Assembly: GCA_000997385.1 (NCBI GenBank)
Contig: LCBT01000001.1
Coordinates: 1 to 49,706 of the forward strand
Direction: 5' to 3'
DNA length: 49,706 nt
DNA from: Candidatus Daviesbacteria bacterium GW2011_GWA1_41_61
GTDB lineage: Bacteria; Patescibacteriota; Microgenomatia; Daviesbacterales; UBA10151
Below the pieces are notes generated by a model. It saw nothing but the letters and a program-made list of their open reading frames with translations. It made no database searches and was not told where the DNA came from. This document shows positions 4,280-8,466 of the stretch, in pieces. Both the position numbers and the translations under genes were made by a program. How positions within the stretch are numbered: position 1 is the first letter of the stretch; every line of letters starts with the position of its first letter.

Positions 4280-5377
4280 ATGATTATGGGAATAAAATTA
4301 GTCAAGGTTCTCTCAGTTATCTTTCTTATAACCCTACTCTTTGCTGATTTTCCACCTCTTTGGCAAAATCCAAGAATTCCGCCAAAAATTGGAGAAGCGT
4401 ACGCGGTTGATGCTACTAAAACTTATACTTTTGATTCGACTACAGAGAGTTGGAGTGCGACTGCGTGCGGAGCTGCCGGAGCTGTCTGTATTTGGCAGTC
4501 GGGTGATGGTAGTCCGGCGAACGGTAGTCTTGAAGAACCAGAGACAAGAAAAAATAAAGGTGGAACGTGGACTTGGCAACTTTCAGGTATTACATGGGAG
4601 AGTTTAGGAGTACCAAGCGGAGCGACTGTAACAGCCGTTGATGGTTCTTACAATCATACGATGGCAGTGTGTACAAATTGTAATATAACAGGAAGCAATA
4701 CGTCTGGCACTCTTTCAATTCGTGATTCTGGCGATACGGCAACTATTGCCACTCTTGAAACTGCCGTGTCATATACCGGGGCCGCAACGTGGGCCAGCAG
4801 AAATGCTTCTGGCGCACAATCGATTGGCGCGGCGTATCAAGCAAGCAATACCGGTATTATCCTTAAGCTTTCAGGGAGTATCCAAACCAACAATGTCACC
4901 GGCGCGGCGGCAACTATCCGGCAAGACCAGTTATCGCTTGTCATTACTTATACTGCGGCCGCGGTTGTTTCTGTATCTGTGTCTGACGGCGTAGTAAGCT
5001 ATGGTACTCTGCTGGCTAATGCTTCAAAAACTACCCTATCCGGGGAGCTAAATGATATGCAAACAGCCACTAATGATGGTAATGTAACGGAAAACTTCAA
5101 CATTAAAGGACAAGACGCTACGGGGGGCGGATGTACTTGGACTCTTGTCTCAACCAACGGAAGCGACCAATATGTTCACCAATTCTGCAACGCTACCGAT
5201 AACTCTTGTACTTCGCCACCGACTAACTACACTGCTTTAACTACCAGTTATCAAGCTCTCAAGACCGGGGTAGCTGTTAGTGGAACTGTTGATTTCCAAT
5301 TACGTCTTACAACTCCAAACCCCTCAAGTTGTTATGGGCAACAATCAGTTGATGTTACTGTTCAAGCTGCACAATAA
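4280..5377 (+). CDS. Secreted beta-protein with C-terminal WTL domain
   Basis: A 365-residue exported protein. Residues 1-40 form a signal peptide with likely cleavage after AYA. Residues about 45-225 are a Thr/Ser-rich beta domain that includes two CxxC-like pairs. Residues about 230-365 form a domain clearly homologous to the next gene: shared landmarks are DGxVxYGTL, QTATNxGNxTENFNI.GQ, a WTL tripeptide, YVHxFC and PPTNYTALTTSYQ, ending QSVDxTVQA. The WTL and the partner gene at 6020 recall the WxL surface system of Gram-positives, but that link is my inference. TATATT at 4269-4274 suggests a leaderless mRNA starting at the ATG. Function unknown; probably wall-associated. Confidence 0.8.
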   Translation: MIMGIKLVKVLSVIFLITLLFADFPPLWQNPRIPPKIGEAYAVDATKTYTFDSTTESWSATACGAAGAVCIWQSGDGSPANGSLEEPETRKNKGGTWTWQLSGITWESLGVPSGATVTAVDGSYNHTMAVCTNCNITGSNTSGTLSIRDSGDTATIATLETAVSYTGAATWASRNASGAQSIGAAYQASNTGIILKLSGSIQTNNVTGAAATIRQDQLSLVITYTAAAVVSVSVSDGVVSYGTLLANASKTTLSGELNDMQTATNDGNVTENFNIKGQDATGGGCTWTLVSTNGSDQYVHQFCNATDNSCTSPPTNYTALTTSYQALKTGVAVSGTVDFQLRLTTPNPSSCYGQQSVDVTVQAAQ

Positions 5378-5399
5378 ATTAACCGCTCTACAGTTCAAC

Positions 5400-5428
5400 T
5401 TGACAAACAATAAAATCTCTGAAATACT
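5400..5428 (+). promoter_or_regulatory. Promoter of the small WTL-domain protein
   Basis: A perfect TTGACA (5400-5405), a 17-base spacer and AATACT (5423-5428, four of six). Predicted transcription start about 5435, two bases before the ATG at 5437, giving an almost leaderless mRNA. Confidence 0.6.
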
Positions 5429-5436
5429 TAAATTAG

Positions 5437-5964
5437 ATGAAAATGAAAAAGCTCTTTTCAATAAAATTAAAAGGACTCTTTTTAATCTCTCTATCTCTTA
5501 TAATAGTTTCAACTATCTTTGTAGGTGTAGTAAAAGCGGCATCGACAGCCAGCGTGACCGCTACTGTCACTGTTCAAAATATTTCTGTTACTGTTACCGA
5601 TGGCACTGTTGCATATGGAACCTTAGCAACAAGTGTCTCTGCCGACACCAATCCCGCCGATACACAGACTGCTACTAATAACGGTAATATAACAGAAAAC
5701 TTTAATATTCTAGGCCAAAACTCTGCAAACTGGACTTTAGGAGCTGCGGCGGGAGCGAACACCTATGTTCATAAGTTTTGCACTGCTACTTGTACTACAC
5801 CACCCACCAACTACACCGCCCTTACCACAAGCTATCAGACTTTAGCAACAAGCGTGGCAGCCAGCGGTACTCAAACATTTGATTTGGAAATTAGCACTCC
5901 TACCTCATCAACCAATTATACCGCGCAATCAGTGGATATAACTGTTCAGGCGGTAGCTCCATAA
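5437..5964 (+). CDS. Small secreted WTL-domain protein
   Basis: A 175-residue exported protein: positively charged start, hydrophobic core and likely cleavage after VKA (about residue 34), then one copy of the domain that forms the C-terminus of the preceding protein (DGTVAYGTL, NNGNITENFNILGQ, NWTL, YVHKFC, PPTNYTALTTSYQ, SVDITVQA). It looks like a tandem duplication of the domain. One Cys pair probably forms a disulfide. It has its own promoter, 60 bases downstream of its paralogue. By analogy with WxL proteins it could be held at the wall by the protein encoded at 6020 (inference). Biochemical role unknown. Confidence 0.8.
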   Translation: MKMKKLFSIKLKGLFLISLSLIIVSTIFVGVVKAASTASVTATVTVQNISVTVTDGTVAYGTLATSVSADTNPADTQTATNNGNITENFNILGQNSANWTLGAAAGANTYVHKFCTATCTTPPTNYTALTTSYQTLATSVAASGTQTFDLEISTPTSSTNYTAQSVDITVQAVAP

Positions 5965-6019
5965 GCCTATAAATTCTTGTTGCCTTTCTTCTTTTTCTTC
6001 TGTATGATTATCAGTAAAG

Positions 6020-6757
6020 ATGATGAAAAAAATTTTTATCGCGCTTTTCCTTTTAGGACTGATTTCCCCAACTGTTGCATACGGACGGATTGGGGTGGGA
6101 GTTGGGACAGGTAAAATCCAAGTTGAAGATAAACTAAAGCCCGGGATAATTTATGAGCTGCCATCTTTAACAGTATTAAATACCGGAGATGAGGAGTCAG
6201 ATTATGAAGTAAATGTATCTTACCATGAGAAGCAACCGCAACTTCGACCTCCTCAAAATTGGTTTATTTTTTCTCCCCAGAAGTTTCATCTAGAACCTGG
6301 TAAAGTTCGAACAGTCACCATTAAATTAAATTTGCCGGTCAGAACAGAACCAGGTGAGTATTTTGCTTATTTAGAAGGGCACCCGGTAAAAAAAAGCGTT
6401 TCCGGCAACACGACCATTGGAGTGGCGGCGGCGGCTAAACTCTACTTCACAGTTATCCCGGGAAATTTTTTAGAAGGAATTTATTATAAAATTGCCTCTT
6501 TTTGGAAAGTCTATTCTCCCTGGCCGCAGAGACTTCTTATTTTATTAGTCATAGGAGTAGCTTATCTTTGGGTTCGGAAACACTTTAACATTCAGATTGG
6601 ACTGAAAAAGCCGGGGGCGACAAGCCCTGAACATCATACAGAAAGTTCTTTTAAGCCTCTTCGTCGGCTGTCCAGAAAAGAACTATTTTTACAAAAGCAA
6701 AATGAGTCAAAAACTTCTATTTTAGAGAATAAATTAGATAAAGATAAAAATGATTAA
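6020..6757 (+). CDS. WxLIP/DUF916-like membrane-anchored surface protein
   Basis: A 245-residue protein: signal peptide (1-21), an immunoglobulin-like domain (about 25-155) resembling the DUF916/WxL-interacting protein or pilus-chaperone fold (VLNTGDEESDYEVNVSY, then FSPQKFHLEPGKVRTVTIKL and EPGEYFAYLEGHP), then a transmembrane helix (about 170-190) and a basic cytoplasmic tail ending in many Lys. In Firmicutes such proteins accompany WxL proteins and anchor or bind them. The position directly behind two WTL-domain proteins supports a partner role here. The 3' end overlaps the likely ATG of the dockerin gene (6750) by eight bases. The family call rests on pattern recognition only. Confidence 0.65.
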   Translation: MMKKIFIALFLLGLISPTVAYGRIGVGVGTGKIQVEDKLKPGIIYELPSLTVLNTGDEESDYEVNVSYHEKQPQLRPPQNWFIFSPQKFHLEPGKVRTVTIKLNLPVRTEPGEYFAYLEGHPVKKSVSGNTTIGVAAAAKLYFTVIPGNFLEGIYYKIASFWKVYSPWPQRLLILLVIGVAYLWVRKHFNIQIGLKKPGATSPEHHTESSFKPLRRLSRKELFLQKQNESKTSILENKLDKDKND

Positions 6758-6765
6758 AAAAAAAA
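6756..6765 (+). repeat. A10 tract at the start of the dockerin gene
   Basis: Ten consecutive A bases follow ATG ATT at 6750-6755. With ten A bases the ATG frame stops after ten codons. With nine (or twelve) it reads straight into the dockerin frame and supplies a full signal peptide. It is a slippage-prone tract, or a sequencing/assembly error in a homopolymer. Confidence 0.7.
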
Positions 6766-6795
6766 TTATTTTTTCTATCTAACGCTGTTTTTTTA

Positions 6796-7446
6796 GTGTT
6801 TATAACGCTGTTTTTATTTGATGCAAAATATACCCAAGCAAGTTTTACAAGTAACGTCAACGCAACAGTTAAAATAAGCGTCTGTGGTAATGGAATTATT
6901 GAAGGAGGAGAAGACTGTGAAGGAGTGGATTTGAATAGCCAAAGTTGTACTACTCTAGGTTTCGACGCTGGTACTCTATCCTGTGATATCGCCTGCAGCT
7001 TTGATACCACTGACTGTCTTACTCCTACCCCCATCCCCTCTCCGACTGCCACTCCCATACCAACGGCTACTTTAACCCCGACTTTAACTCCTACCCCAAC
7101 TTCAGCACCCAGCAACGTTTCTACTACCTCAACTTCCAACCCCACTTCCCAAACCACCTCTACGCCTACTCCTAATCCCTCCCCAGCTGGTAGTTTATTG
7201 CAAATTCCTGTCGCCGTAGTCACGCCAATGCTTCCTCTACCCATTCTCTCTTTTGATACTGATGGTAATGGCAAGTTGGAAACAACCGAGATTTATTTCG
7301 TGGTTAAAGACTGGGTCGAACAATGGAGGGAAGATTATGATTTTTCCCAAAAGACCCCTAAAAAACAAAAGAAGTGTGATATTAATCAAGACCAAAGATG
7401 TAACTTATTTGACTTTTCTATCTTGATGTATTATGTAGAACGATAA
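6796..7446 (+). CDS. Secreted Cys-rich protein with C-terminal dockerin domain
   Basis: A 216-residue protein as read from the GTG at 6796; the natural start is probably the ATG at 6750, which would add MIKKK plus a hydrophobic stretch if one A of the poly-A tract is skipped. Order: hydrophobic segment, a Cys-rich CGNGIIEGGEDCEG module (about residues 31-75) of the kind often called myxococcus Cys-rich repeat, a Pro/Thr-rich linker (77-130), then two EF-hand-like calcium loops, DTDGNGKLETTE and DINQDQRCNLFD, as in dockerin type I. Dockerins bind cohesins with calcium, and the next gene encodes a cohesin-like domain three bases downstream, so the pair probably interact. No enzyme domain is attached. 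Confidence 0.75.
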   Translation: MFITLFLFDAKYTQASFTSNVNATVKISVCGNGIIEGGEDCEGVDLNSQSCTTLGFDAGTLSCDIACSFDTTDCLTPTPIPSPTATPIPTATLTPTLTPTPTSAPSNVSTTSTSNPTSQTTSTPTPNPSPAGSLLQIPVAVVTPMLPLPILSFDTDGNGKLETTEIYFVVKDWVEQWREDYDFSQKTPKKQKKCDINQDQRCNLFDFSILMYYVER

Positions 7447-7449
7447 ACG

Positions 7450-8466
7450 ATGTTCAAAAAGATAAGTGTTATTTTTGTAGTAATATCGGCGGCTATTTCC
7501 TCCTGGCTGGTTATTCATTTGCTGGCTATTTCTGGAGTTTTTTTAGCTTTAGCCAGCCCCATCTGGTGGTTGTTATTCCCTAAAAAATCAGTTTGCCTTC
7601 TCTGCCGAGCGGAAAAGGACGGTAAATGGTGCTGGCTCTGCCGGGAAAAAATAGTTAAAAGTGAAGGAACTACCCCTAAAAGTCTGTTCTCATCTGTTTT
7701 AAATGGTTTTTTGATCTTATTTTTTACCATTATTTCTTTATTGTTGGTCTATTCCGAAGGCCGTCTTTTATCTTATCTGGGTTTTCCCCCGGTTTCCAAA
7801 ACAGCTTCTTTTATTATCCCAACTAAAGGACAATATCTTCTCGGTGAGGTTTTTCCGGTTAAAATCGAGGTTACCGGCATTAAAACTGCTGTCAACACCA
7901 TTCAAGCCGATCTGGGCTTTGATCCTCGAGTGGTTGAGGTAACCCAAGTTTCAACCGAGGGCTCATTTGCCAATATTTTTATCCAAAAGGTTATTAATAA
8001 TAATGAGGGCTATGTCCGGCTGACCGGCGGACTACCTAATCCCGGTTTCAGTCAACTGCAGGGAACATTTGCCACAGTGTATTTCCGTGGTAAAACACCT
8101 GGTCCTGTCAAAATTAAGTTTCTCCCTACCTCCCTAGTTTTAGCCAACGATGGACTGGGGACAGATGTCTTAAAAGACCTCGCGTCTGTTTCCTATTTAA
8201 TCCTTCCTGAATCCGTACCCGTCTCCCAAACCCCAATATCTGATGAGCCAGAGGAAAGTACAACCTTAAAACCCACCACTTTGGGAGAGGAAACGGGCAG
8301 CACCCAAATGATTTTTTATGAAGAGAATGTTTTAGGTAAAAGCATAAAAAGTCAATTTAAACAAAACGATCAAGAAGTTCGGCTTTCTATCTTTTTGGAC
8401 GGTCTAAAGCAATTTGATAACTTTATCCTTAATCTATGGGGAAAAGCCATCGGTACAGTTAAATGA
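7450..8466 (+). CDS. Membrane-anchored zinc-ribbon and cohesin-domain protein
   Basis: A 338-residue protein. Two hydrophobic helices (about 5-45) precede a small zinc-ribbon-like pair of CxxC motifs (C49/C52 and C61/C64), followed by another membrane helix (about 80-105). Residues about 118-258 read like a cohesin domain: GQYLLGEVFPVKIEV, QADLGFDPRVVEV, GYVRLTGGLPNPGF, then GTFATVYFRGKTPGPVKIKF. The C-terminal 70 residues are charged and low in structure. Cohesins hold dockerins in cellulosomes and in other surface assemblies. Start at 7450 is three bases after the dockerin gene stop, so the two are translationally linked. The zinc ribbon between helices is unusual for a cohesin scaffold. 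Confidence 0.75.
   Translation: MFKKISVIFVVISAAISSWLVIHLLAISGVFLALASPIWWLLFPKKSVCLLCRAEKDGKWCWLCREKIVKSEGTTPKSLFSSVLNGFLILFFTIISLLLVYSEGRLLSYLGFPPVSKTASFIIPTKGQYLLGEVFPVKIEVTGIKTAVNTIQADLGFDPRVVEVTQVSTEGSFANIFIQKVINNNEGYVRLTGGLPNPGFSQLQGTFATVYFRGKTPGPVKIKFLPTSLVLANDGLGTDVLKDLASVSYLILPESVPVSQTPISDEPEESTTLKPTTLGEETGSTQMIFYEENVLGKSIKSQFKQNDQEVRLSIFLDGLKQFDNFILNLWGKAIGTVK

Follow-up and report, generated by a model that had tools for sequence, protein, structure and literature searches.

A WxL-type surface gene cluster of Candidatus Daviesbacteria: a new domain family and a putative dockerin–cohesin tether

How might a member of the Patescibacteria with a genome of 1.06 Mb (7 contigs, 99.75% complete) assemble a structure on its surface and hold it there, and which of its genes would supply the parts? 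The question is raised by five closely spaced genes, numbered here 1 to 5 in their order, at positions 4280-8466 of a 49,706-nucleotide stretch (positions 1 to 49,706 of contig LCBT01000001.1, Candidatus Daviesbacteria bacterium GW2011_GWA1_41_61; hereafter, "the window"), which encode two secreted proteins, one long and one short, that have a W-T-L-containing domain in common (the WTL domain), a membrane anchor, a secreted Cys-rich protein with a dockerin at its end and a membrane protein with a cohesin. Host attachment is a leading open question for the Patescibacteria, whose surface proteins are mostly unannotated, and a recurring cluster with a predicted assembly order gives concrete, testable parts. 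The answer argued for below is that this is a WxL-type surface cluster in which both the domain family and the way of tethering are new. We read it, at a probability of roughly 0.55, as a csc/WxL-type surface assembly made up of a tip, an adaptor or shaft, a membrane anchor and a base tethered by dockerin–cohesin in place of sortase; that it serves host attachment is a guess.

A sequence-only reading of the window had already proposed these five adjacent open reading frames (ORFs) in a small-genome bacterium, and their positions proved to be as given, all on the + strand, the one flaw in the proposed layout being that the ORF of gene 4, although in place like the other four, does not have a proper start (Table 1). 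The genes follow each other at 59 bp, 55 bp, an overlap or 38 bp (depending on where gene 4 begins) and 3 bp. Conservation of this order in related genomes, which had been named as a check, holds across the phylum: a scan of 84,980 species for the gene 3 family turned up 13 loci (Woese-, Ames-, Nomura-, Pace-, Moran-, Wolfe- and Dojkabacteria, as well as unnamed Patescibacteria), and a WTL gene directly adjoins gene 3 in all 13 of the named loci, while a dockerin and then a cohesin gene lie downstream, in the same order, in 9 of the 12 named loci whose downstream side is readable. A second sample of 380 genomes spread over the phylum showed how patchy the distribution is, with gene 3 present in nine of them (each time beside a WTL gene, at a distance of about 60 bp or less in eight and of 0.8 kb or less in G154), and, among 45 searched genomes of the window's own family, just the window genome and G013 carry it. 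When loci were fetched by their cohesin instead, the order anchor–dockerin–cohesin was seen in 11/20. Such conservation of order argues that the arrangement is not due to chance. As several relatives (L049, L085, L086, G409 and G111) have a long WTL gene that is divergent or lies on a different contig, genes 2-5 look like the core unit, and the anchor–dockerin–cohesin plan is not limited to the WTL subtype, since a genome of the same family (L021) has a two-domain protein over the Pfam WxLIP_PGBD cut-off, followed by genes for a dockerin and then for a gene 5-type cohesin. In a second version of the cluster (L087, L090, L091, L102, L021 and L022), two-domain DUF916 proteins and other large secreted proteins, many of them ending in xTP.[YF] or similar, are followed by dockerin and cohesin genes.

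Table 1. Coordinates (positions in the window) of the five genes and of the features discussed in the text
Feature	Positions	Strand	Size or residues	Basis
Gene 1, long WTL protein	4280..5377	+	365 aa	ORF, alignment, AlphaFold2 (AF2) model
Promoter-like site TTGACA-N17-AATACT with TG, upstream of gene 2	5400..5428	+		consensus scan alone
Gene 2, short WTL protein (signal peptide, then a free N-terminal strand and a single WTL domain)	5437..5964	+	175 aa	
VTATVT, mature N-terminal strand of gene 2, candidate donor strand	5554..5571	+	residues 40-45	
Gene 3, DUF916/WxLIP_PGBD-like anchor	6020..6757	+	245 aa	family alignment, AF2, Foldseek, profile comparison
Gene 3, low-confidence hairpin ahead of the conserved TTIGVAAAAKLYFTV strand; candidate strand for donation to WTL	6380..6430	+		pLDDT 63-73 (blocks 121-140), conservation, inference
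Gene 4, Cys-rich secreted protein ending in a dockerin	6796..7446	+	216 aa as ORF	
NVNATVKI, strand at the N-terminus of gene 4, with the gene 2 motif in degenerate form	6853..6876	+		outscores all 221 controls
Dockerin-like domain of gene 4: loop 1 DTDGNGKLETTE, loop 2 DINQDQRCNLFD plus helix FSILMYYVER	7246..7443	+		
Gene 5, membrane protein	7450..8466	+	338 aa	
Cohesin domain of gene 5	7843..8103	+	residues 132-218	Pfam PF00963

What ties the cluster to the WxL systems is, above all, gene 3, the AF2 model of which (mean confidence score, pLDDT, of 78) shows one PapD-like immunoglobulin (Ig) domain between the signal peptide and a transmembrane (TM) helix at about residues 168-189, with a basic tail behind it; the hydrophobic segment is aligned in 17/17 members of the family. 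Foldseek matched this model to PapD-type pilus chaperones (DraB at 1.7e-6, also Caf1M, FaeE and FimC) and to the WxLIP of E. faecium, both by itself (9i1y, 5.8e-6) and bound to a long WxL protein (9i25, 1.4e-5), so that the earlier suggestion of a DUF916-like protein with a membrane anchor is borne out by the fold. Profile comparison makes the same connection via two-domain Patescibacteria DUF916 proteins, to which the gene 3 family aligns at 97.6% (E 3.8e-12) and which themselves align over their full length with Firmicute WxLIP at 98.5% (E 2.4e-15) and match WxLIP chains in the PDB (0.002). The direct sequence link is weak, with 72.8% (E 3.2e-5) for the gene 3 family against Firmicute WxLIP and just E 0.17, in a single one of 17 members, for Pfam PF06030. 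On the strength of the model and of this chain of profiles, gene 3 carries a PGBD-type Ig domain related to WxLIP_PGBD and is a one-domain relative of WxLIP: like EfmWxLIP1 (9i1y, 9i25), it has the PapD-like PGBD fold, the C-terminal TM helix and a disordered hairpin before the last strand, whereas a single extracellular domain precedes the helix, leaving no second domain of the HBD/DUF3324 kind. The hairpin deserves attention because the hairpin strand of WxLIP has been predicted to insert into a gap in the WxL sandwich (PMC10599100), and, by analogy, the gene 3 hairpin is a candidate for donating a strand to the WTL domain. Given that the gene 3 fold matches pilus chaperones, such insertion resembles donor-strand complementation.

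The putative partner of this hairpin, the WTL domain, spans about 140 aa common to genes 1 and 2 (54-57% identity), just as the sequence-only reading had noticed. In gene 1, it is C-terminal (residues ~216-365, nt ~4925-5374), after an N-terminal signal/TM segment and a variable N-terminal domain (residues ~44-215), and is confidently folded and mostly beta in the model (pLDDT 92-98 across residues ~231-365); in the long proteins generally, it sits directly behind another domain, with no free tail ahead of it. Is it, then, a WxL domain under another tripeptide? The Pfam scan placed it in no known family, Pfam WxL (PF13731) matched none of 26 WTL members, and hhalign gave a probability of 0.6% against small and 0.2% against large WxL proteins, the Firmicute WxL sequences used being those of Enterococcus plasmid genes; a PDB search with a WxL consensus returned no chain, and the same consensus did match those plasmid genes. 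Where WxL proteins have two W-x-L motifs on adjacent strands and a DxRG before the first, WTL has a single conserved W-[TSI]-[LI] and no DxRG. Membership of the WxL family was accordingly rejected, neither Pfam nor hhalign nor the PDB profile search lending it support; as judged from its sequence, WTL is a new domain family that is not detectably WxL. Foldseek found no PDB match below 0.001 for the whole gene 1 model, the N-terminal half of which is poorly predicted, and the best relevant matches, all weaker than that, were the pilus tip adhesins CsuE (0.04), CFA/I (0.055) and FimH (0.077), which are to be taken as a hint only. By eye, the long WTL protein seems to be fused to a subtilisin-like protease domain at L043:3-1283 and L046:2006-3877 (loci that have neither dockerin nor cohesin), and a transposase/integrase-like gene separates the long from the short WTL gene in a Woesebacteria locus (L040:6267-7337).

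The short WTL proteins do have a free tail. Over 14 loci across the phylum, they share VxATVT at the mature N-terminus, the A, V and T being invariant, and the tail is the most conserved part of the protein, with a pairwise identity of 0.75 versus 0.46 for the domain; as a tail better conserved than its own domain, it probably binds something. A degenerate copy of the motif recurs at the N-terminus of gene 4, not only in the window, but also in its relatives (e.g., TVTATVQI in L017 and VVSATVTL in L045). Scored against 221 further secreted proteins encoded at the same loci, gene 4 N-termini reached a mean of 14.1 versus 6.6 for the controls (Mann-Whitney p 1.7e-7), their shuffled versions gave 6.8 +/- 0.7 and never exceeded 9.0 in 1,000 shuffles, and an unsmoothed matrix pointed in the same direction (p 4e-6). 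The top-scoring control itself turned out to be the gene after the anchor in L046, that is, one in the gene 4 position. A similar likeness can be found in the Firmicutes, where the small LPxTG and small WxL proteins of Enterococcus plasmid WxL clusters (L104, L107, L113 and L116) begin alike, e.g., with YxSNGxxxF (NYESNGQASFY/SYTSNGIVEFT; EYDSNGVTAF/NYDTNGVITF), beyond most shuffles in four of five pairs, from three of the four clusters. The CscD proteins had been considered too short and divergent to align, their alignment being "not informative", and were guessed to anchor other Csc proteins (Siezen 2006, PMC1534035); these peptides, the role of which has been unexplained since 2006, would also find an explanation in a strand common to the LPxTG and small WxL proteins.

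Behind its N-terminal strand, gene 4 continues with a Cys-rich module that a Thr/Pro linker connects to two EF-hand/dockerin loops. The frame that encodes the protein starts from GTG 6796 and lacks the positive charge normal at the beginning of a signal peptide, while the frame of the ATG at 6750, which overlaps the end of gene 3, is closed by a stop ten codons on, behind a run of ten A. The true start is probably near ATG 6750, with the frame broken at the A-run by either an assembly error or homopolymer phase variation. The two-loop dockerin claimed for this gene is supported by Pfam Dockerin_1, which matches 10/10 members of the family (best 2.7e-10), though the copy in the window alone stays under the cut-off (17.3 versus 22.9 bits); both calcium loops, each of which is followed by a helix in type I dockerins, are recognisable in nearly all 10. 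The cohesin-like domain claimed for gene 5 passes its own cut-off (24.7 versus 24.1 bits; 26.8 bits in the genome search), and Pfam Cohesin matches 8/10 family members (best 3.1e-9). It faces outward, after two N-terminal TM segments around a Cys-containing zinc-ribbon-like loop and ahead of a linker and an amphipathic C-terminus. The dockerin and the cohesin, a combination known above all from cellulosomes, are thus encoded by adjacent genes, and would bind each other. As relatives of Pfam cohesin and type I dockerin in neighbouring genes, they are reminiscent of non-cellulosomal cohesin–dockerin pairs, from which they differ in that the cohesin is on a two-TM, zinc-ribbon-like membrane protein and the dockerin belongs to a Cys-rich protein whose N-terminal strand is a shared one.

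What such a pair would be for is best illustrated by G013 (L016:10579-12189), the gene 3 protein of which is 81% identical to that of the window: its gene 4 homologue retains the strand and the Cys module, a C-terminal TM helix replaces the dockerin, and no cohesin gene comes after it. This exchange, the strongest argument available here, speaks for dockerin–cohesin acting as a tether rather than as part of a cellulosome. Together with the LPxTG ending in the Firmicutes, it suggests three endings for one role: a sortase signal, a TM helix and a dockerin on a membrane cohesin. As the envelope proteins essential to a cultured epibiont include one with a dockerin domain (SEML1_0315, PMC10633639), cohesin–dockerin surface tethering in the phylum seems worth testing. 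Other dockerins and cohesins of the host genome include one dockerin and then two cohesin proteins in a row (C3:138000-154000, L024), a cohesin-like and a cohesin-like/dockerin protein beside a 1772-aa secreted Ser/Cys-rich protein (C5:34000-47000, L052) and single dockerin proteins at C5:36621 and C2:160115 (L053 = C2:156000-164000).

Put side by side with the csc/WxL clusters of Firmicutes (PMC1534035, PMC9772566, PMC10599100), the locus shows the same kinds of parts: a large protein in which the shared domain is always C-terminal, a small domain-only protein, a DUF916 protein anchored in the membrane and a small anchoring protein that begins in a similar way to the small domain protein. The earlier comparison with WxL/WxLIP clusters is therefore apt, albeit in layout only (one WxLIP-like and two WTL genes), as WTL is not detectably WxL, gene 3 comes without HBD/DUF3324, and a dockerin protein and a membrane cohesin stand where the LPxTG protein would be. 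Beyond the PapD/WxLIP fold of gene 3, each step of the mechanism is one that we infer, from strand insertion into the WTL domain to polymerisation, dockerin–cohesin binding and the target of the tip. The long WTL protein would be the exposed functional subunit, a tip or an adhesin, and the short one a repeating or adaptor subunit forming the shaft; gene 3, as a membrane-tethered PapD-like WxLIP relative, would hold, chaperone or complete WTL domains at the membrane until its hairpin is displaced, as the strand at the N-terminus of the next short WTL protein, or of gene 4, could do. Gene 4 would then be the base subunit, joined through its strand to a WTL domain, with its dockerin plugged into the membrane-embedded cohesin of gene 5, in the role of the sortase-anchored LPxTG protein CscD.

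The outcome would perhaps be a donor-strand fibre, by analogy with chaperone-usher pili and TasA/TapA (PMC9674648, PMC10151520). Here, too, a PapD-like fold is encoded beside the subunit; as in chaperone-usher pili, the short subunit has a free N-terminal strand and the long one has none before its domain (a FimH-like layout), and gene 4 would resemble TapA as a minor base subunit opening with a similar strand. The differences are that there is no usher and that the subunit domain is a new family, and the polymerisation is a predicted one. A broader generalisation, in which WxL-type clusters are donor-strand fibre systems and the locus represents their Patescibacteria branch (with a new pilin-like WTL family, a membrane-tethered PapD-like protein replacing the periplasmic chaperone and usher, a FimH-like tip and a base held by dockerin–cohesin, not sortase), is put forward tentatively, as the odds lean somewhat against it.

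Several observations weigh against the proposed assembly itself. The locus holds no usher-like or dedicated polymerase gene, and an acceptor groove in WTL is hypothetical, given that the domain is not detectably related to WxL and that the gene 1 model has no significant PDB match. The strand motif is not uniform either: 2/14 gene 4 N-termini (L049 and L086) are indistinguishable from controls, those of L040, L041 and L088 stand out only mildly, in the top 5-14%, and the p-value of the rank test is optimistic, the loci being related. The most serious competitor is a static WxL-type complex, with neither polymerisation nor fibre, in which gene 3 would hold one long and one short WTL protein at the membrane and dockerin–cohesin would be a second tether. 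It accords with the published view of WxL clusters, in which large WxL, small WxL and WxLIP form one complex (PMC10599100, PMC1534035), and the fold of gene 3 suits it, but a complex held by gene 3 alone needs no conserved short-WTL tail recurring in gene 4, and we deem it unlikely. The remaining option, a cellulosome-like display platform in which gene 5 captures dockerin proteins from the whole genome and genes 1-3 are a neighbouring system of their own, can draw on further clear genomic dockerins (C5:36621, C5:44178 and C2:160115, with one more at C3:145121), on two further cohesins over the Pfam cut-off (C3:145516-146405) and on dockerin–cohesin genes without an anchor at L089, L094, L097, L099 and L103, but is quite improbable considering the close packing of genes 3-5, the recurrence of anchor–dockerin–cohesin (among others, in 9/12 gene 3 loci) and the fact that some of the other genomic dockerins adjoin cohesins of their own. 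The cellulosome comparison made in the sequence-only reading was likewise rejected: no enzyme-family match was found in genes 1-5, each gene 5 has a single cohesin, and there is no multi-cohesin scaffold at the locus.

As for the regulation of the assembly favoured here, the site upstream of gene 2 (Table 1) is the best promoter-like candidate, being the sole 10/12 match of the region in a consensus scan that returned 15 sites versus 9.9 +/- 3.5 expected. Further upstream, at 239-1504 of the window, a secreted-looking protein with no Pfam match carries GNVGIGTT[SN]P repeats that recall tail-fibre-type beta repeats.

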